Source: Syntrophobacteraceae bacterium
Lineage (GTDB): Bacteria > Desulfobacterota > Syntrophobacteria > Syntrophobacterales > Syntrophobacteraceae
DNA: 35,688 bases
Direction: 5' to 3'
Assembly: GCA_031292195.1 (NCBI GenBank)
Contig: JARLHP010000246.1
Span: 1 to 35,688, forward strand
Below are positions 581-35,688 of this stretch, piece by piece (position 1 is the first letter of the stretch; each line of letters opens with the position of its first letter). The notes beneath the pieces were generated by a model. That model was given only the letters and a program-made list of their open reading frames with translations. It ran no database searches and was not told the DNA's origin. A program made the position numbers and the translations under genes.

Positions 581-1624
581 CTAAGCTGTTTTTACTGCTT
601 TGGCATCGGCGGGCGGTCTGAACTCAGGCGCGCCGTCGGCGATCCCGAAAAACCTGTAGGCCCATATCTGGTAAGCAATTACAATCGGTACGAACACCAG
701 CGCCACTCCGAGCATGATCTTCAGGGTCAGGGGACTCGACGAGGAGTTGAACGCGGTCAGGCTGAATGCCGGATCGAGGCTCGAAATGAGAAGATTGGGA
801 TACATTCCGACGACCCCGAAAAGTGTAACGGTAAAGATGAAGACCGCGGAAGAGAACCAGGCTTTAAGCCATTGGGCCTGCCGGGCGAAAAGAAATATGG
901 AGATCAACGCCCCGACCGCGGCCAGCGGAATCACGAACAGGAAGGGGGACTTGAGGTAATTGTCATAGAGGTGCGTGGAGACGAATGTTGCGGCCAGGAA
1001 TATCACCGCGACGGCGGCCAGTGCAAACCAGAGTTTGCCGGCCAGTTTTCCGGCTCGCTGTCCGAAGTCTCCGCCGGATTTTACAGCGATCCACAAAGCG
1101 CCGTGAACGGTGAAAATCAAGGTGAAGAGAATGCCTCCCATAAGCCCATAGGGATTTAGCAAGGAAAAGAGCGTTCCGTGGCAGACTCCGGCCTTATCGA
1201 TCAGAATGCCGCGGAACAGGTTGGCGAAGGCCACGCCGAACAGCAGCCCGGGTCCGAAAGTGCCTATCCACAGGAGGGTGTCCCAGAATTTTCTCCACTT
1301 TGCCGAAGAAAACTTGAACCGGTACTCCATTGCCACCCCGCGGAAGATGAGACAAAACAAAATGAGCAGGAGCGCCGAATAGAGGCTGCTGAACATCACG
1401 GCGTAGGTCTTGGGAAAGGCGGCGAAAGTGACCCCGCCCGCGGTGATCAGCCAGACTTCGTTTCCGTCCCAGTAGGGTCCCATGCTGTTATAGACGGCTC
1501 GCTTGTCGTTTTCATCTTTGGCTATGAAGGGGGCCAGAGTTCCAATGCCGAAGTCGAAGCCGTCCAGTACGAAGTAGACGGCCCAAAGAATACCCCACAA
1601 TGCAAACCAGATTGTCTCAAGCAT
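581..1624 (-). CDS. cydB: cytochrome bd ubiquinol oxidase subunit II
   Basis: CydB pairs with CydA to form the high-affinity terminal oxidase in the cytoplasmic membrane, which reduces O2 to water with quinol. The 347-residue product is strongly hydrophobic throughout and carries the conserved N-terminal DGFDFGIG (residues 21-28) and the 'MGPYWDGNEVWL' stretch typical of CydB. I start it at the ATG at 1624, not at the longer ATG upstream, because a strong ribosome binding site (GGAGGT) precedes 1624 and the first residues (MLETIWF) match the family. It overlaps the end of cydA by 8 bases, so the two are translationally coupled. In an otherwise anaerobic gene set its likely role is oxygen scavenging. 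No small cydX-like ORF was seen after it. Confidence 0.95.
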   Translation of the reverse strand: MLETIWFALWGILWAVYFVLDGFDFGIGTLAPFIAKDENDKRAVYNSMGPYWDGNEVWLITAGGVTFAAFPKTYAVMFSSLYSALLLILFCLIFRGVAMEYRFKFSSAKWRKFWDTLLWIGTFGPGLLFGVAFANLFRGILIDKAGVCHGTLFSLLNPYGLMGGILFTLIFTVHGALWIAVKSGGDFGQRAGKLAGKLWFALAAVAVIFLAATFVSTHLYDNYLKSPFLFVIPLAAVGALISIFLFARQAQWLKAWFSSAVFIFTVTLFGVVGMYPNLLISSLDPAFSLTAFNSSSSPLTLKIMLGVALVFVPIVIAYQIWAYRFFGIADGAPEFRPPADAKAVKTA

Positions 1625-2963
1625 ATCCCACCTCCTCGTCGGTCGAACCGGGCAGGGCCGTTTCATCCTGCGGACCTTTGCGCGCATGGTCCCACATCAG
1701 GTAGAAAGCGACAACTCCCAGGAAAGCATACACCAGCACGAAGGCGGCCAGCGAGATCCCCACCTGGGCGGCGCTAATAGGAGATACGGCCTGTGAAGTC
1801 TTCATGATGCCGTAAACCACCCAGGGCTGTCTGCCCACTTCGGCCAGTATCCAACCGCACTCGCAGGCCAGGTAAGGCAGGGGGATGGCAAAAAGGAAGA
1901 GCTTGAGCAGGCCGGGGCGAGCCTCGATGGAATTACGCCGGATAAACCCGATGATTGTGGTCAGCAGGAAAAAGCCCCCCAGCGCCACCATGATACGGAA
2001 GGAAAAAAAGGGCAAGGTCACAGGCGGTCTCTCGGATCGCGGGAAAGCCTTCAAGCCCTTTACCTCGGCATCGAAATGGCGATATGCCAGAAAGCTCAGT
2101 AATCCGGGAATGGCGCCAATTTCGATGCTGTTGCGTTCTTTGGCCGGGTCGGGGAGCGCCAACAGGTATTCGGGGGCGGATTTTGTGGTATTCCACAGCG
2201 CTTCCAGGGCTGCCAGTTTTGCCGGTTGATACTTGGCGATTTCTCCGGCGTGAATGTCTCCCTGCACCATTTCAACCAGTGAGAAAAGGAGTGCGAACGT
2301 TACCGCAATCCGAAAAGAGCTTTTGAAAAAGGAAATGTTGCTTTTTTTCAGCAGATGCCAGGCGCTCACGCCCATAACGAAAAAGGCCGCAAGAATATAG
2401 GCGGCTGAAATGGTGTGGGCGATCATGTTCCAGGCTAAAGGCTGGGTGATTACGGCGGGGAAGCTGTAGAGTTCGGCCCGCCCGTTTCTAATCACGTATC
2501 CCACCGGGTTCTGCATCCAGGCATTGGCGATCAGTATCCATATGGCCGAAACGTTGGAGGCGATGGCCACGAGCCAGATGGTTATGGCATGGGCCTTGGC
2601 TGAGAGCCGGTTCCACCCCAGCGCCCACACGGCCACAAAAGTGGACTCCAGGAAGAAAGCAACCGTCGCTTCGATCGCCAGAAGCGAGCCGAAGATGTCG
2701 CCCACATACTCTGAATAGCGCGACCAGTTTGTCCCGAACTGAAACTCGAGCGTAATGCCGGTGACAATCCCGATGGCAAAGTTGATAAGAAAGATTTTGC
2801 CCCAGAAGCGGGCCATTCTTCGGTATTCTTCGTTTCCCGTCCTTACGTAGGCAGTCTCCATTATAGCCAGAAGCACGGAGAGTCCGAGCGTAAGCGGCAC
2901 AAAAAGAAAATGAAAGAATGTCGCCGCTGCAAACTGGAGTCTGGATAGCATCAGTACATCCAT
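1617..2963 (-). CDS. cydA: cytochrome bd ubiquinol oxidase subunit I
   Basis: CydA binds the three haems and the quinol of cytochrome bd oxidase. In this 448-residue protein I can place the haem ligands by comparison with E. coli: H18, H183 and M387. The conserved acidic pair is E98 and E106, and the signature GRQPW is at 377-381. The loop between the 'MVQGDIHAGEIAKYQP' region and the 'PFFSFRIMVALGG' segment is short, so this is the short-Q-loop (CIO-like) type. The start ATG at 2963 has a moderate AAGGGG upstream; an internal ATG four codons later is possible. The gene is followed directly by cydB with an 8-base overlap. Repeat B lies in its upstream region. Confidence 0.96.
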   Translation of the reverse strand: MDVLMLSRLQFAAATFFHFLFVPLTLGLSVLLAIMETAYVRTGNEEYRRMARFWGKIFLINFAIGIVTGITLEFQFGTNWSRYSEYVGDIFGSLLAIEATVAFFLESTFVAVWALGWNRLSAKAHAITIWLVAIASNVSAIWILIANAWMQNPVGYVIRNGRAELYSFPAVITQPLAWNMIAHTISAAYILAAFFVMGVSAWHLLKKSNISFFKSSFRIAVTFALLFSLVEMVQGDIHAGEIAKYQPAKLAALEALWNTTKSAPEYLLALPDPAKERNSIEIGAIPGLLSFLAYRHFDAEVKGLKAFPRSERPPVTLPFFSFRIMVALGGFFLLTTIIGFIRRNSIEARPGLLKLFLFAIPLPYLACECGWILAEVGRQPWVVYGIMKTSQAVSPISAAQVGISLAAFVLVYAFLGVVAFYLMWDHARKGPQDETALPGSTDEEVGYA

Positions 2964-29694: not shown

Positions 29695-30450
29695 TCAGGA
29701 AATCCGTCCAATCAGCCGCAGAAGGCCGTCAAGGATAGTAAGAGGGCTCGGCGGACAGCCGGGAATGTGGAGGTCCACGGGTAAAAGCCCCCCTGCCCCG
29801 TTGTGGACTTCTTCATGATCGATGAACGGCCCGCCCGCTATGGCGCATGAACCGACCAGGATGACCACCTTGGGCTCCGGCACGGCCCGGTAGGTTTTTA
29901 GCAGGGCCAGACGCATGTTTTCCGGGACCGGCCCCGTTATCAGCAGTCCGTCCGCATGCCGGGGAGAGGCCACAAATTGAATTCCGAACCGCCCGAGATC
30001 CCATCCCACAGTCCCCAGCACGTTGGTGTCGGCTTCGCACGCGTTGCACCCACCGGCGCTCACCTGGCGCAGCTTTAGCGACTTGCGGAAAAGACGGTTC
30101 GCCGGTGTGGCCGTGATACGCCCCGCAGGCCGGGAGGCCGCCCCGACGATCAGGTTTTCACGCACCGATTCGGCCATACTGTAATCGTTTGTAAACCGTA
30201 TGGCCTGGTGCGGGCATGCATCGGCGCAACGGGAGCAAAAGAGGCATTTGCCCAGATCGATTCCCGGCGGGTTGCAAACGATGGCCCCGGTCGGGCAGAC
30301 TTGCCCGCACAGATCGCAGCCCGGCTCGCACCTTTCCGGGAAAACGGCCGGCCTTCCCTGATAGCGATCGGATAAGGCGGGCGGAGGACCGTCCGGAAAA
30401 TCAATGGTTCGATGTTTCTGTTGAAGCCTTGCCCACAGGATGTCGAACAT
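29695..30450 (-). CDS. hyfI: Ehr/Hyf-like electron-transfer subunit: ferredoxin domain fused to HyfI-type small subunit
   Basis: The 251-residue protein joins two parts. Residues about 35-95 are a two-[4Fe-4S] ferredoxin (C41, C45, C48, C52 and C69, C72, C75, C79), like HyfH/NuoI. Residues about 130-245 are a hydrogenase small subunit/NuoB-like domain with four cluster ligands: C135 and C138 (GGCNACE), C202 (GSCAIAGG) and C232 (PGCPPSP). So the iron-sulfur electron path is intact. AAGGTG precedes the ATG at 30450. It is the last gene of the operon, 20 bases after the large subunit. The complex sits on the cytoplasmic side of the membrane. Confidence 0.9.
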   Translation of the reverse strand: MFDILWARLQQKHRTIDFPDGPPPALSDRYQGRPAVFPERCEPGCDLCGQVCPTGAIVCNPPGIDLGKCLFCSRCADACPHQAIRFTNDYSMAESVRENLIVGAASRPAGRITATPANRLFRKSLKLRQVSAGGCNACEADTNVLGTVGWDLGRFGIQFVASPRHADGLLITGPVPENMRLALLKTYRAVPEPKVVILVGSCAIAGGPFIDHEEVHNGAGGLLPVDLHIPGCPPSPLTILDGLLRLIGRIS

Positions 30451-30470
30451 ACCAGCACCTTGAGTTGATG

Positions 30471-31988
30471 TTACAGATCATGGCCGCAATAGGACAGGTT
30501 GAAACTCTTGTTGCAGAGCGGGAAATCGGATATCTGCTGCCCTCGTAGCGCATAGGCCAGTCCGAACCAGTTGTGAAACGACGGGTCGACCACCTTGTAG
30601 CCGGCAAATTTACCTTCCGAATCGGTAAGAGCGACGTGGCAAATTTCACCCCGCCAGCCCTCGACAAGCGATACAGCGATGCGGCCGGGGCCAGCGGCAC
30701 GCGGGGTGGCGCGCTCGGTCCCGCCCGGAAGCCCTCTTAGCTGCTCGCGGATGAACGCGATGGACCGCTGGATTTCCAGCCACCGCACGTAGCCGCGCCC
30801 GAAGACATCTCCGGTGAGGCCTGTGGATACGGGGATCTGATAGAGCTGAAAAATACCGTTTGGCATGTCGCACCGGATATCCCGCTCGATTCCGCAGGCC
30901 CGCGCGGCAGGTCCAACCAGGCCCATTGCCACGCCATCCCGGACGCCGATCGCCCCGGTCCCCTCGAACCGGGCCATGACCGAAGAAGAATTCCAAAGCA
31001 AACCCACTGCCACCGAGAGGTCTTTTTCAAGGGTGTCAAGCCGGTTCAGCAGTTCGTCCCGCCTCTGTCCGTCCACATCGAAACCGGTCCCGCCGGGTCT
31101 TACCAGCCCCCGGCCGAAGCGGTTTCCGCAGATAAGAGCGCTCATGTTGAGCACGTCTCCACGTATCCGGCCGCAGTAGGAAAGCGTTGGAAGGTATCCC
31201 ACGTCTCCGGCCAGCGCCCCCAGGTCTCCCGTGTGGTTTGCGATCCGTTCGAGTTCCAGGGCCACGCCCCGGAGCACTTGAGCTTTAGCCGGGACATTTG
31301 TGCCGCTAAGGCCTTCCAGGAGTTCGCAGTAGGCCAGCGTGTGCCCGATCGTGGTGTCTCCCGAAAGCGTCTCCATGTAATGGACCGTACGCCGGTCGGG
31401 CCCTCCGATGAGCTTTCGCTCCACTCCCCGGTGCTGGTAGCCAAGAGATATTTCCAGGTGGAAAACATTCTCCCCGTGGCACTGAAAACGAAAGTGCCCC
31501 GGCTCGATGATCCCGGCGTGCACCGGGCCGACCGCCACCTCGTGGACCTCATCGCCCGCCACGCGAAAAAAGTCGGCATCGCCGATCTGGGCAACAGCCT
31601 TTCCGGACTCACCCACCCGGTAGGGAGCATGGAACCGGATCGGTTTTAGCCACGGGTGGCCGCAGGGCTTGACCTGCCATTGCTCGAAGATCTCGCGCTC
31701 GAACCAGTGGGCCTGCGGGCAATAGGGGGTTATGGAATCATATCGGTTGCCCTCGAGATCGGTGTAAAGGAGCAAGACCACCGCTTGAGCGTCATGGGAG
31801 AGAACTGCCCAAAGCCTTACTCTGCCCCCTTCGCTCGGCCGGGCGAATAGAGCCGATATTCGCAGTCCCTGTTTTACCGCTTCGATGATGGATTCGCAAA
31901 AATCGGCGCAACCCATTCCGGTGGCATTGGAGACATCCGTTGCCTGGCCGTTGCTCATGGAAAATATTTTAGAAGTCGGGACCGACAT
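30471..31988 (-). CDS. hyfG: Ehr complex large subunit (HyfG/NuoCD-like) lacking nickel ligands
   Basis: The 505-residue protein is a NuoC-like domain (about 30-125; CPQAHWFEREIFEQW) fused to a hydrogenase-large-subunit/NuoD-like domain (about 150-505; HLEISLGYQHRGVERKL). In true group 4 hydrogenases the first nickel motif is CGxC followed by H; here the aligned residues are SGDT (209-212) with H216 kept. The C-terminal DPCxxC reads FNLSYC (C501), so at least three of the four nickel-binding Cys are missing. This is the pattern of energy-converting hydrogenase-related (Ehr) complexes and of NuoD, so no H2 chemistry is expected. Start: ATG at 31988 with GGAG 10 bases upstream. The reaction is unknown. 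Confidence 0.9.
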   Translation of the reverse strand: MSVPTSKIFSMSNGQATDVSNATGMGCADFCESIIEAVKQGLRISALFARPSEGGRVRLWAVLSHDAQAVVLLLYTDLEGNRYDSITPYCPQAHWFEREIFEQWQVKPCGHPWLKPIRFHAPYRVGESGKAVAQIGDADFFRVAGDEVHEVAVGPVHAGIIEPGHFRFQCHGENVFHLEISLGYQHRGVERKLIGGPDRRTVHYMETLSGDTTIGHTLAYCELLEGLSGTNVPAKAQVLRGVALELERIANHTGDLGALAGDVGYLPTLSYCGRIRGDVLNMSALICGNRFGRGLVRPGGTGFDVDGQRRDELLNRLDTLEKDLSVAVGLLWNSSSVMARFEGTGAIGVRDGVAMGLVGPAARACGIERDIRCDMPNGIFQLYQIPVSTGLTGDVFGRGYVRWLEIQRSIAFIREQLRGLPGGTERATPRAAGPGRIAVSLVEGWRGEICHVALTDSEGKFAGYKVVDPSFHNWFGLAYALRGQQISDFPLCNKSFNLSYCGHDL

Positions 31989-32043
31989 TTACAGTAAACT
32001 CCGGGAAATAGAGAAAATACGCATCACCGTGCCCATGGCGGCC

Positions 32044-33549
32044 CTAGCCTCCGATCGCCCTGGCCGCATGTTCCAGCAACCCTTTGAGGGCCGGGGGCAG
32101 ATAGAGACCCAGGACCAGCACCGCCAGGCCGAGCACCAGCGGAGGGATTACCGTCAGCGCCGATTCGCCCGCGGGGGCCGGAAAATCTCCGACGCCCGGC
32201 AAGTCCGCCGCCGCCCGCTCCACGGGTGCGCCCTGGCACATCCTGAAGACTATGGCCGCCATGCCGATAAAAATGACGCTCAGCAGGACCAGATAGACCA
32301 CCGCAATGACGATCCGCCCCTGGTCCAAGGCCGATTTGAGGATGATCAACTCGCTCAGGAACGGCCCGAAGGGAGGTGAGCCGGTTATGGCCAGAAAGCC
32401 CGCCACCCACAGAACGCCGGAAATGGGCAGCAGTTTTGCCGCTCCCCTCACCTCCGGGGCGGACTTGGTTTTGTAGGCGGTTAGAATGTTTCCGGCCACC
32501 AGGAAGAGCATCCCCTTGGTCAGGGAGTGATTTACAGCGTGAAAGAGCGCGCCGAAATAGGCCGCGCCTCCCAACCCCACCGCCAGCGAGAGAATCCCCA
32601 TGTGCTCGATGCTCGAATAGGCCAGCATGCGCTTGTAATCGCTCTGAGCGACGATAAAGAGGGCCGCTACGGTCATGGAAAGAAGACCGAACCCCAGAAG
32701 GATGTGCTGCCCGAACTCTCCCAGCCCGGCGGCCTGGCACACCTGCAGGATTCTTAGCACCGCCAGGAAGGCGCAGTTTAGCAAAGCCCCGGAGAGCAGC
32801 GCGGACACCATCGAGGGCGCTTCGCTGTGCGCATCGGGAAGCCAGGTATGCATGGGAGCAAGCCCCAGCTTGGTTCCGTATCCTACGACCAGTAAAAGAA
32901 AGGCGACCTTCAGCCACAGCGGGTGCAGAAGACCCCCATGGGAGATAAGGCTGCTCAAAAGCAGGGGGACCGATTTATCCGGACCAAGCGTTGCGGCCAC
33001 GGCCAGGCAGAAATTCCCGAGAAGCGCCAGACCGATGCCCACCGAACAGATCATGAGGTACTTCCAGGTGGCTTCCAGGGACCTCCGATGCCGGTGAAAA
33101 TAGATGAGCGGCGCGCTGGAAAGGGTGGTGGCTTCCACCGCCACCCACAGCAGGCCGAAATCCTGTCCCAGGCAGACCAAGCTCATGGTGGCCAGAAAAA
33201 ACAGCAGGCAGCAGGTGAACGTGGCCTCGCGGGCATTGCTGAAAAGGAAGCCTCCCTCGAAGTCCTGGCGATTTCCCCAATCCTCTCTTTGGAAATACCC
33301 CACCGAATAGAAGGAAGCGGCCAGAAACAAGAAGCTCACGATGCTCAGGAAAAGCAGCCCCAGGTCGTCCAGCAGAAGCCAGCAGCCAAATGCGGGAGCA
33401 GGCCTGTGCACCCATGCCAGGCCCGTCAGCGCACAGTGGGCGACAGCGGTCGCCAGCAAAATCAGTCGGCGAAACCGGTCGGAGGGCACAAACAGGGCCG
33501 CGACGCCCGCTATAATCGGCAAAAGGAAAAAAAGCAGAATCATCGTCAT
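32044..33549 (-). CDS. hyfF: HyfF-like antiporter-type membrane subunit
   Basis: The 501-residue protein is a NuoM/NuoN/Mrp-like ion-translocating subunit with about 13-14 transmembrane helices. Motifs typical of HyfF are WVAVEATTLSSAPLIYF, then SLEATWKYLMICSVGIGLAL, 'KLGLAPMHTWLPDAHSEAPS', DYKRMLAYSSIEHMGI and the conserved Lys in HSLTKGMLFLVAGN. These include the Glu and Lys residues of the proton path. I start at 33549, where the hyfE stop and this ATG overlap as TGATG; an ATG two codons later is possible. The open frame extends upstream only as the shadow of hyfE. Confidence 0.92.
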   Translation of the reverse strand: MTMILLFFLLPIIAGVAALFVPSDRFRRLILLATAVAHCALTGLAWVHRPAPAFGCWLLLDDLGLLFLSIVSFLFLAASFYSVGYFQREDWGNRQDFEGGFLFSNAREATFTCCLLFFLATMSLVCLGQDFGLLWVAVEATTLSSAPLIYFHRHRRSLEATWKYLMICSVGIGLALLGNFCLAVAATLGPDKSVPLLLSSLISHGGLLHPLWLKVAFLLLVVGYGTKLGLAPMHTWLPDAHSEAPSMVSALLSGALLNCAFLAVLRILQVCQAAGLGEFGQHILLGFGLLSMTVAALFIVAQSDYKRMLAYSSIEHMGILSLAVGLGGAAYFGALFHAVNHSLTKGMLFLVAGNILTAYKTKSAPEVRGAAKLLPISGVLWVAGFLAITGSPPFGPFLSELIILKSALDQGRIVIAVVYLVLLSVIFIGMAAIVFRMCQGAPVERAAADLPGVGDFPAPAGESALTVIPPLVLGLAVLVLGLYLPPALKGLLEHAARAIGG

Positions 33550-34193
33550 CAATCTCGTAAGGCGCTCAGCCGGTCGGTGTCCATGTGGTCGAATTCCCGG
33601 CTGATATGAAAGATCGTGATGCCCATTACAAAAACGGCCATAAACGCGTCGAGCAAAATCCCCAGTTCCACCAGCAGCGGCTCGCTGAGAGCAAAAGCCA
33701 GGCCGAAAGCATAGATGCCGTTTTCCATCACCAGGTATCCCAGCACCTGGGTGAGGGCTTTGCGGCGGCTGACAATGACGAAAAGACCCACCATGATGGT
33801 GAACATGGCCAGCGGCAACACCATCGGGGAATGGTCCGGCACGGGCAGGGGAAGTTGCCTGCCAAACCACATTGCCGCCGCCAGCAGGACCGCCCCGATC
33901 ATGAGAGAGAGCGTGTAGCCCACCAGGGGCTCCATTTCGCGGCGAACGTTGGCGGAGCGAAGGGCGCGCAGCAGCAGCCAGGGAAAGAAAAAGCCTTTGA
34001 GTATCACTGTCGCGCCCGAAAGCGCGCACGCCCGCACCGTCAGGTAATGGGGGCCCACCAGCAGGGGCAGCATGCCCAGCAAAACGCCCTGGCAGGCTAC
34101 GGCATAGATGCAGGCCGAGATCCGGCTCGAGGCGATGAGCCTCAGATTGGTCAGGATCAGGATCGCGATCACCGCGTCGGTGAACAGTTTCAT
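33549..34193 (-). CDS. hyfE: HyfE-like membrane subunit
   Basis: The 214-residue membrane protein has about six transmembrane helices. It matches HyfE, which contains a NuoK-like part: 'QVLGYLVMENGIYAFGLAFA' with the membrane Glu of NuoK, and LGILLDAFMAVFVMGITIFHI. It begins one base after the hyfC stop and its own stop overlaps the hyfF start. The spacing shows strict operon organisation. Confidence 0.9.
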   Translation of the reverse strand: MKLFTDAVIAILILTNLRLIASSRISACIYAVACQGVLLGMLPLLVGPHYLTVRACALSGATVILKGFFFPWLLLRALRSANVRREMEPLVGYTLSLMIGAVLLAAAMWFGRQLPLPVPDHSPMVLPLAMFTIMVGLFVIVSRRKALTQVLGYLVMENGIYAFGLAFALSEPLLVELGILLDAFMAVFVMGITIFHISREFDHMDTDRLSALRD

Positions 34194-34194
34194 G

Positions 34195-35136
34195 TCAGCT
34201 CCAAAGTATCAGCGCCAGGGCGAAAGTGGAGAGGAATCCGGCGCTCACCAGCAACTGGGGAACGCGGGTGAGCCGCAACCTGGCCATTGCCGATTCGATA
34301 ACGCCGGTCAAAACGGCCAGAACGAAAAGGCCAAGAATGACCGCCCCGGCGTCCAGCCAGGTATTGCCGGTCCGGACCGGGACAAGCAGGCCGGCCAGAA
34401 GCGCGCCCAGGGCCCACAGCTTGAGGGAGGCCCCGTAGAGGATCATGGCGAAATCCGGCCCGCTGTGATCGAGCACCATTACTTCATGGATCATGGTGAG
34501 TTCGAGGTGGGTATTGGGATCGTCAAATGGCACGCGCGAGTTTTCGGCCAGAAAGACCACCAGGAGCGAACCTGCCACCATCAGCAGCGCCGGGCCGGAG
34601 CGCACCCAGGTGGCAAGGGACAAACGGGAATACATGGCGGAAAGCGAAAAGAGAAAACCATGAACCGGGGAGGCCGGGTTTCGTCCGGCAAGCCAGATGG
34701 TCGCCAGGGCCATCAAAAGGACCGGTTCGGCCAACGCCGAAAACTGCACTTCGCGGCTGGCCCCCATCCCTTCGAAGGCCGAACCGGTGTCCAGGGCGGC
34801 GATCACCGTAAAAAACCGCATGAGCCCCAGCAGATATGCCATGAGGATCAGGTCTCCGGGAAAGCTCACCGGGGCCGAAGCGCCTCCCAGCGGCAGCACC
34901 GTCAGCACGGCCACGGCCGAGACCAGGCCCACCACGGGGCCCGCCCGAAACACCCAACTGGTCGTGCGGCTGTAGACTCCGCCCTTCCTCACAAGCTTTG
35001 CCAGATCGTAGTAGAGCTGCAGGAGGGGCTGTCCGTCCCGGCCCGCAACCACGGCCTTGGTACGATTGATTATGCCCGGCAGAAGCGGGGCGAGCGCCAG
35101 GGCAAGCACGGGAAGCGCCAGTCGACCGTAGTTCAT
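34195..35136 (-). CDS. hyfC: HyfC/NuoH-like membrane subunit
   Basis: The 313-residue protein is the NuoH/HyfC/EchB-type subunit that links the soluble arm to the membrane arm. Conserved pieces include GRDGQPLLQLYYDLAKLVRK, DTGSAFEGMGASREVQFSA and 'RVPFDDPNTHLELTMIHEVM', which carry the acidic residues next to the quinone or proton entry site. It has about eight transmembrane helices. It starts 4 bases after the hyfB stop. Confidence 0.93.
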   Translation of the reverse strand: MNYGRLALPVLALALAPLLPGIINRTKAVVAGRDGQPLLQLYYDLAKLVRKGGVYSRTTSWVFRAGPVVGLVSAVAVLTVLPLGGASAPVSFPGDLILMAYLLGLMRFFTVIAALDTGSAFEGMGASREVQFSALAEPVLLMALATIWLAGRNPASPVHGFLFSLSAMYSRLSLATWVRSGPALLMVAGSLLVVFLAENSRVPFDDPNTHLELTMIHEVMVLDHSGPDFAMILYGASLKLWALGALLAGLLVPVRTGNTWLDAGAVILGLFVLAVLTGVIESAMARLRLTRVPQLLVSAGFLSTFALALILWS

Positions 35137-35140
35137 CGTG

Positions 35141-35688
35141 TTACCTCAAACACCAGATTAGAAGAACAAAGAGTGTCAGAGCAATGTAGAGAATATAGAG
35201 CTGCACACGGCCGGATTGCAAAAACCGGAGCATCAGCGCCACTTTTTCCACCGCCTTAAAGATCGGCCCGTATAGGCTCTTCAGGAAAAAATCCTCGGAG
35301 TGCGATTCGAACGCGGCGCCCTCGGGAAAGAACACGCCCGGGTCCCCGGAGTCGCCCGCCGGTCCCCCCCCCTTCAGGAAGGAGGGCTGGTGAGACCGAA
35401 TGCGCAAAATTGTTCCAAACATGGCGGTAAGAGGCTGAGCAAAAGAGGATGCGGTGTACTGCATGCTTGCCGCCGGCCTGGCATAGCCGCAATCCCAGGT
35501 GCCTTCGCTCGTGGAGATGGGACCCCGAAGAACTCGGCGACGAAACAGCGCGAGCAAAATCACCCCCAGGACCACCAGCCCGGATATGCTTGAGACTTTG
35601 AATAGAGCACTCGAAGCGGGGGCGAGGCCACTGCGCACCGCGTCGATCGAAAAACCGGAGACCGCCGCCACGGCATGGCCCAAAAACC
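35141..35688 (-). CDS. hyfB: HyfB-like antiporter-type subunit, C-terminal part (runs off the window)
   Basis: Only the last 180 or so residues lie in the window; the gene enters from the right edge. The visible part ends a NuoL-like domain and contains the HyfB signature 'TWDCGYARPAASMQYTASSF' followed by AQPLT, then an extension and a final transmembrane helix (LYILYIALTLFVLLIWCLR). The N-terminal antiporter core is outside the window. It is the first visible gene of the operon hyfB-C-E-F-G-I. Confidence 0.9.
   Translation of the reverse strand, partial: FLGHAVAAVSGFSIDAVRSGLAPASSALFKVSSISGLVVLGVILLALFRRRVLRGPISTSEGTWDCGYARPAASMQYTASSFAQPLTAMFGTILRIRSHQPSFLKGGGPAGDSGDPGVFFPEGAAFESHSEDFFLKSLYGPIFKAVEKVALMLRFLQSGRVQLYILYIALTLFVLLIWCLR

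Follow-up and report, generated by a model that had tools for sequence, protein, structure and literature searches.

Ehr, a hydrogenase-like membrane complex without a nickel site, combines a remodelled, conserved pocket with an HTH-EIIA gene at the operon head

What does a membrane complex do that is built like a hydrogenase and has no nickel site? The question is raised by contig JARLHP010000246.1 of a Syntrophobacteraceae bacterium (assembly GCA_031292195.1), whose 35,688 bases, here called the window, end in an operon of the Ehr type (energy-converting or Ech hydrogenase-related). The complex belongs to a known but unexplained class: Ehr has been described before, together with its missing nickel ligands and its unknown function (available sections of PMC6349859, PMC7894505, PMC10284858, PMC8691401 and PMC4378227), and the published Ehr papers, in those sections, cite Coppi 2005 and Marreiros 2013. 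What is new is a conserved gene encoding a helix-turn-helix (HTH) domain fused to an EIIA domain, a candidate operator for some members of the family, and a more precise account of the former NiFe pocket. Judged from sequence, the balance leans modestly towards Ehr being a functional redox ion pump that does not handle H2 and is under dedicated HTH-EIIA control.

An operon of hydrogenase type

The Ehr operon occupies the right end of the window (35686-29695, minus strand) in the order ehrA(partial)-ehrB-ehrC-ehrD-ehrL-ehrS. An initial annotation, made from the letters alone, had described it as an Ehr-type hydrogenase-like membrane operon, and the open reading frames (ORFs), their coordinates and the Pfam matches agree with that description. 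Its features are as follows.

35141..35686, minus strand: EhrA, HyfB/NuoL-like antiporter subunit, C-terminal 181 codons only (profile of orthologs)
34195..35136, minus strand: EhrB, HyfC/NuoH-like, 313 amino acids (Pfam NADHdh, 5.9e-28, and alignment with relatives)
33549..34193, minus strand: EhrC, HyfE/NuoK-like, 214 amino acids (Pfam Oxidored_q2, 5e-8)
32044..33549, minus strand: EhrD, HyfF/NuoM/N-like antiporter subunit, 501 amino acids (Pfam Proton_antipo_M, 6.1e-48)
30471..31988, minus strand: EhrL, HycE/HyfG/NuoCD-like large subunit, 505 amino acids, nickel-free (Pfam and alignments)
31353..31364, minus strand: SGDT, EhrL residues 209-212, in the place of CGxC (alignment)
30474..30500, minus strand: NLSYCGHDL, EhrL residues 497-505, the C-terminus, in the place of DPCxxCxxR (alignment)
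29695..30450, minus strand: EhrS, 251 amino acids, NuoI-like ferredoxin domain fused to a NuoB/HycG-like domain (Pfam and alignment)
30214..30330, minus strand: two [4Fe-4S] motifs of EhrS, Cys 41-79 (alignment, 83 rows)
29755..30048, minus strand: proximal N2-like cluster, EhrS Cys 135, 138, 202 and 232, with hydrogenase-type CxxC spacing (alignment, 83 rows)

Group 4-type large and small subunits are thus encoded together with HyfB/C/E/F-like membrane subunits in one operon, the head of which is on another contig. The operon proteins also match Pfam Complex1_49kDa (6e-33) and Oxidored_q6 (2.8e-23), and EhrC matches the NCBIfam model of the hydrogenase 4 membrane subunit (2.3e-30, under that model's cut-off). 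The ATG start of ehrD at 33549 overlaps the ehrC stop. The first gene, ehrA, is truncated by the contig end; the short piece gives no Pfam match alone and was named through the ortholog profile (258 bits). Since the window is a complete contig (C145; letters G, C and L mark our genomes, contigs and loci) of an assembly of 311 contigs and 5.5 Mb that is 94.9% complete, the operon head lies off its end. The N-terminal part of ehrA is found on contig C271 of the same genome, G000 (locus L151, 2-1105, minus strand); the two contigs are separate in the assembly.

Compared with the hyf operon of Escherichia coli, no counterpart of HyfA or HyfD is present, and unlike in Hyf the ferredoxin is fused to the small subunit; the separate ferredoxin-like subunit proposed initially is a domain of EhrS.

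Loss of the nickel ligands across 136 large subunits

To describe the nickel site, we aligned 136 EhrL large subunits scoring above 500 bits, 123 of them distinct. A profile alignment to HycE places (A/S)GDT on CGIC and NLSYCG on DPCYSC. The four nickel-ligand columns contain, respectively, Ala (118), Ser (11), Cys (4), Gly (2) and Thr (1); Thr (127), Ser (5) and Ala (4); Ser (135) and Ala (1); and Gly (136), so that cysteine occurs in 4, 0, 0 and 0 of the 136 rows. The ligands of group 4 [NiFe] hydrogenases, CGxC and CxxC, are therefore missing in EhrL. The alignment also includes six true hydrogenases (HycE, HyfG, L033, L016, L034 and L057), which show CGIC and DPCxSC, and it is therefore able to detect ligands. 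This bears out the initial reading of a large subunit with SGDT for CGxC, LSYC at the C-terminus and no nickel site.

A nickel-ligating cysteine at a shifted position had been named beforehand as evidence against this reading, and none was found. The cysteine of LSYC (column 501, Cys in 134/136) was considered as a nickel ligand and ruled out, as it aligns with HycE Ser533, between the ligands C531 and C534 and with neither of them; the column is Ser in four remoter Ehr-like proteins (L194, L180, L181 and L168). A processing protease had been named in the same way. Genes of the HycI family are present in the source genome on contigs C100 and C87 only, and EhrL ends at the column that holds the cleavage Arg in HycE, with 0 residues beyond it, in 135/136 rows. 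A cleavable C-terminal tail, found in HycE and HyfG and not in every group 4 enzyme, is accordingly absent; this is not diagnostic by itself, because three of the genuine hydrogenase controls likewise end at the cleavage-Arg column.

Intact iron-sulfur path and pump residues

The initial annotation had counted eight ferredoxin cysteines, an N2-like cluster and a full set of proton-pump-like membrane subunits, and the alignments of EhrS (83 rows), EhrA (57 rows) and EhrD (42 rows) uphold all three. Of 83 rows, 79-83 retain each of the NuoI-type ferredoxin cysteines of EhrS (41, 45, 48, 52, 69, 72, 75 and 79), and 81-82 each of the NuoB/HycG-type proximal cysteines (135, 138, 202 and 232). In the antiporter-like subunits, the equivalents of NuoM E144 and K234 are present in 57/57 EhrA and 42/42 EhrD, that of E407 in 57/57 and 40/42, and that of K265 in 56/57 EhrA. 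From the fused 2[4Fe-4S] domain we infer a ferredoxin-linked electron input; a soluble donor is the simplest reading.

The former NiFe pocket

Residue roles in hydrogenases are taken here from the available part of PMC9474812. The proton-gate Glu (HycE E193) corresponds to Glu162 in 136/136 EhrL, and the wire residues His252 (136/136), Arg363 (135/136) and Glu405 (136/136) are kept, as is the canopy Arg446 (136/136). The canopy Asp, termed strictly conserved in that part of PMC9474812, is replaced by Asn in 130 sequences, Ser in 4 and Gly in 2. C492, N493 and K494 are each found in 136/136. The most conserved segments of EhrL are those of the pocket, with values of 0.98 (151-165), 0.97 (496-505) and 0.92 (481-495) against a protein mean of 0.69. 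An AlphaFold2 model of EhrL built with 46 sequences reached a mean predicted local distance difference test (pLDDT) value of 85.7, and its best match in the Protein Data Bank is HycE (template modeling score of 0.82; HycE alignment E of 1.3e-55).

HycE, of the E. coli formate hydrogenlyase/Hyf systems, is thus the closest solved large subunit. Ehr shares with it the gate Glu, the wire and the canopy Arg, and with HycG the CxxC; unlike HycE and HyfG, EhrL is without nickel ligands and C-terminal tail and in most sequences has Asn for the canopy Asp. The resulting residue set matches neither a hydrogenase nor complex I, nor the membrane-bound sulfane reductase MBS as described in the available part of PMC7684303.

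An HTH-EIIA gene at the operon head

The gene before ehrA encodes a winged HTH (PF12728) fused to an EIIA-Ntr domain (PF00359). In the window's organism it adjoins the N-terminal part of ehrA on the separate contig C271.

L151, 1137-1979 as longest ORF, likely start 1829, minus strand: HTH-EIIA gene (Pfam, both domains)

The initial annotation had pointed upstream for accessory genes; a gene is indeed there, encoding a putative regulator, neither an accessory nor a maturation protein. Counting those loci that leave space for 800 bases or more, HTH-EIIA is directly upstream in 61/66 (59/64 after the removal of duplicates). The exceptions are L041 (a PHB_acc_N protein), L081 (a divergent HTH-EIIA), L048, L058 and L095. 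Genome G002 carries at L041 (3716-4264) a PHB_acc_N (PhaR-type) regulator gene upstream of ehrA, replacing HTH-EIIA.

Within the family, full-length regulator matches above 250 bits were obtained in 6/26 genomes, all of them Ehr carriers, and in 0/18 genomes without Ehr. Of the other two of the 8 carriers, G002 is without the regulator and the Ehr contig of G022 is cut. In a sample of 395 genomes of the window's phylum, 47 have an Ehr match at E <= 1e-150 and 40 a regulator match over 200 bits: 33 have both, 14 Ehr only, 7 the regulator only and 341 neither (Fisher p of 3e-30, with genomes that are not independent). Four of the 7 regulator-only genomes have an Ehr operon beside the gene (three contig-cut, and L179 below threshold), two have an Ehr-like complex (L180 and L181) and one is at a contig end (L176). 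The regulator gene is placed divergently in L169, L170 and L172 and downstream in L167 and L168. Three of the 14 Ehr-only genomes have a diverged fusion upstream that lacks the phospho-His (L157, 15388-16128; L162, 4114-4854; L164, 3114-3833), possibly a switch from input by the phosphotransferase system (PTS) to another input.

The phospho-His motif is kept in 76/77 regulator matches over 200 bits, and the window's genome has EI and HPr genes side by side on contig C135. The EIIA half matches PtsN (1a6j, 2.9e-22, plus PtsN folds), and the regulator model shows an HTH with wing at a mean pLDDT of 87.8. The domains are those of BldC-type MerR-like winged HTH proteins (BldC compared by description) and of EIIA-Ntr (PtsN); the two-domain fusion, the 10-bp period of the boxes described below and the linkage to Ehr set the protein, with its putative DNA binding, apart from both. 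Neither the regulator nor its boxes are mentioned in the open-licence literature searched, which is weak evidence of novelty. Published Ehr accounts do not mention them in their available parts, and the available part of the PTS-Ntr review PMC13104625 has no mention of hydrogenase, DNA-binding, helix-turn-helix or fusions.

Tandem TGTCC boxes at the regulator promoter

The sequence before the regulator gene was analyzed in 75 distinct regions of 150 bases. The hexamer TTGACA is present in 33/75, compared with 6.2 in shuffles. Same-strand TGTCC pairs 9-12 bases apart occur in 24/75 (shuffles: mean 0.08, maximum 1) and pairs spaced exactly 10 bp in 23/75, as compared with 2/631 regions preceding the other ORFs of these loci and 10/2,920 random windows from the same loci, which possibly include regulated promoters. 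When the regions were halved at random 20 times, TGTCC came out as the top 5-mer every time and recurred in 9-15 of 38 held-out regions. If a partner with one mismatch is allowed, the pair is found in 30/75 regions, with 0.5 expected.

A -35-like TTGA[CT][ACT] precedes the boxes in 18/23 regions and is missing in 5, a count that includes no chance rate; its distance to the boxes is 27-30 bases in 11 forward cases, 10 in 3 reverse cases and 32-43 in 4. The recognition helix EK[TS][IV]YRW is found in 30/30 regulators with a box pair versus 5/45 others (p of 4e-16). BldC, a MerR-like winged HTH protein, binds direct repeats head to tail with 9 bp per subunit (available part of PMC5859096). The window's clade (L151, L037, L038 and L039) has a different recognition helix and no TGTCC pair at the promoter; it retains TTGACA, followed in L151 by a 17-base spacer and CATTTT. 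Two other promoter types were considered and rejected: sigma-54 promoters before the regulator (0/75 regions, 0.06 expected) and perfect dyads, none of which is common to more than 2 regions.

A proposed function and what speaks against it

We propose that Ehr, a member of the complex I/group 4 hydrogenase superfamily, is an ion pump driven by redox chemistry and would neither make nor use H2. A soluble carrier of low potential, probably ferredoxin, would deliver electrons to the 2[4Fe-4S] domain of EhrS, from which they would pass to the hydrogenase-type proximal cluster, whose ligands are present. An acceptor would be reduced in the remodelled pocket, with protons probably supplied through the retained gate and wire, and the energy released would drive ions through EhrB/C/D/A, in which the key charged residues are intact. 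Expression would be set by the HTH-EIIA-Ntr protein, whose gene is linked to the operon head; its EIIA half, which keeps the phospho-His in most lineages, may be read by the PTS, and the promoter of the operon itself would be the target of its HTH half, which in many lineages would recognize the tandem TGTCC boxes 10 bp apart. The boxes are not part of the proposal for the window's own clade.

A wider claim we regard as evenly poised. According to it, Ehr across many phyla would be under an undescribed class of transcription factors (a BldC-like winged HTH joined to EIIA-Ntr) that reads PTS phosphorylation and recognizes TGTCC boxes, arranged head to tail, at its own promoter, and the former NiFe pocket would give the complex I superfamily another kind of acceptor site, with hydrogenase proton gate and proximal cluster, no nickel, no quinone His/Tyr, canopy Asp changed to Asn, an invariant CNK and an almost invariant NLSYCG tail, reducing a substrate other than protons. 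The conservation argues for an Ehr family that is alive and carries out proton-coupled chemistry at a re-specified site. The regulator and its predicted operator in many lineages offer a handle on when cells need Ehr, and the regulon and the inducing condition should be findable by ordinary genetics. Ehr could also widen the range of acceptor chemistries in the superfamily of respiratory complex I.

Several observations weigh against the proposal. For the site itself, the pocket is the weakest part of the EhrL model (pLDDT <50 at 154-169 and 501-505); for the pump, EhrD has Asn at the place of NuoM K265 in 42/42 sequences, as has HyfF. With regard to control, no regulator match over 200 bits was obtained in 14/47 Ehr genomes of the phylum sample, and in nine of the 14 no regulator was seen nearby (L155, L156, L158-L161, L163, L165 and L166; G002, with its PhaR-type gene, is another of the 14, and G067, the last, was left out of this inspection); because these nine of the 47 carriers show none, we slightly lowered our confidence in the best explanation. 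The regulator of G178 is about 23 kb from ehrL, the box pair is missing in 45/75 regions, including those of the window's clade, and the helix motif was picked after inspection in rows that are related. Finally, missense changes in two ehr genes of evolved Geobacter were read by their authors as relaxed selection (available part of PMC13194489, 2026).

Alternative explanations

The alternative that survives best, although we consider it unlikely, is a complex I-like ferredoxin:quinone oxidoreductase with the headgroup in the complex I position. The NuoH-like subunit fits such an enzyme, and a quinone acceptor has been suggested for a possible formate dehydrogenase (FDH)-Ehr complex (available part of PMC6349859). 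Respiratory complex I (NuoCD, NuoB, NuoI and NuoH) has the same fold, iron-sulfur path and antiporter residues, likewise without nickel. However, the positions of its quinone-binding His38 and Tyr87 (Thermus numbering from the available part of PMC7684303, placed by counting along the alignment) are Ile161 and Gly210, each in 136/136 EhrL, and the proximal Cys pair of EhrS has the CxxC spacing of HycG, whereas the two Cys of complex I are neighbours (same source). The quinone linkage suggested initially is thus unsupported by the residues of the complex I headgroup site; a quinone held differently from complex I may still be the acceptor, to which we assign somewhat less than an even chance.

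A dedicated partner, formate dehydrogenase or another dehydrogenase, is a rather improbable second. An FDH-Ehr complex has been proposed for Riflemargulisbacteria and Saganbacteria (PMC6349859, same sections), and Ehr is more abundant on formate in Geobacter (available part of PMC7894505). Against this, no molybdopterin dehydrogenase was recognized by eye in a listing of the 25 neighbour clusters that recur most widely across 130 loci, a partner encoded elsewhere being possible, and the pattern of the FDH-type N-terminal [4Fe-4S] motif gave 0 in 130 loci, without a positive control and with many loci short. A dedicated dehydrogenase gene beside the operon was consequently not seen by either approach. 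Genes resembling acyl-CoA dehydrogenase (3 loci, two of them the same contig twice) and flavin disulfide reductase (3 loci) occur as neighbours, named by eye.

We would give a similarly small chance to the idea that HTH-EIIA acts mainly by touching the Ehr pump and not as a transcription factor. Unphosphorylated PtsN inhibits the antiporter YcgO by interaction (available part of PMC11808508), and the weaker HTH-EIIA paralogs (L182-L193) adjoin a gene for a ClC-type channel or antiporter in 12/12 loci, one of them confirmed by Pfam (Voltage_CLC). The boxes at the regulator's own promoter, in contrast, co-vary with the recognition helix; both roles could hold. The TGTCC pair is found with 0/12 of the regulators adjoining ClC genes.

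A reduction of polysulfide at the proximal cluster, as in the Pyrococcus sulfane reductase MBS, is very unlikely. MBS/Mbx is a nickel-less relative in which the ligands are likewise lost and the His and Tyr of complex I are absent, but it is set apart by a three-Cys proximal cluster and no gate Glu (all by description in the available part of PMC7684303), whereas Ehr keeps the four Cys in 81-82 of 83 rows and Glu162 throughout.

Least likely of all is that Ehr is a functionless hydrogenase remnant drifting under relaxed selection, as claimed for Geobacter sulfurreducens KN400 with reference to missense mutations that evolved strains carry in ehrA-2 and ehrB (PMC13194489, same part): all four nickel ligands are lost, but the pocket is the most conserved region, iron-sulfur and pump residues are intact, the ratio of nonsynonymous to synonymous substitution rates (dN/dS) is 0.09-0.13 for ehrL and 0.12-0.17 for ehrS (four congeners each) and 0.09-0.15 for ehrB (three congeners) at dS of 0.67-1.20, operon order and regulator are maintained across many phyla, and Ehr subunits have been detected in G. 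sulfurreducens, more abundantly with formate (PMC7894505, same part). This conservation argues against a nonfunctional Ehr for the family, not necessarily for strain KN400.

Distribution and descent

Close orthologs (68-90% identity) are present in 7/25 other genomes of the family, or 8/26 with the window's own. A scan of genome contigs yielded at least 553 confirmed relatives. The best 80 of these, at 57-89% identity, belong to records labelled Desulfobacteraceae, Planctomycetota/Phycisphaerae, Acidobacteria, Verrucomicrobia, Lentisphaerae, Omnitrophota, Elusimicrobia, Zixibacteria, Methylomirabilota, Hydrogenedentota, Latescibacterota, Myxococcales and others. The Ehr of Geobacter (e.g. GSU0739-0745), likened here by description in the available literature, has the same subunit set and no nickel ligands. 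A second ehrA, named ehrA-2 in Geobacter, is seen in the seven-gene operons of L157, L162 and L164. Two full-length or nearly full-length EhrA genes in a row were observed in L070, L090, L092, L099, L109, L111 and L113.

A tree of 64 rows places the 40 Ehr rows in a single clade (support 100/98), with no row from a named Geobacter record. A 100/99 branch separates the nickel-less types (Ehr, the L180 type, L194 and L015/L032) from the nickel hydrogenases, with which, unlike Ehr, NuoD of complex I groups; the tree is midpoint-rooted, and the tool warned that long branches meet at the root. If the ancestor had nickel, the losses in Ehr and in complex I would be separate ones.

Other nickel-less complexes were noted. 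Two genomes of the window's genus encode a second hydrogenase-like one (L201, 8328-9926, G018:C333; L202, 10237-11853, G022:C185), with SGTS for CGxC, FGLSNAE at the C-terminus, its own operon and a separate tree branch. Ehr-like complexes with SGDS and NGSYSGHDL are found in L180, L181 and L168 (13988-15589), beside an HTH-EIIA gene with TGTCC boxes. At the other end of the window (581-2963), two ORFs resemble subunits of cytochrome bd oxidase, as judged by eye.

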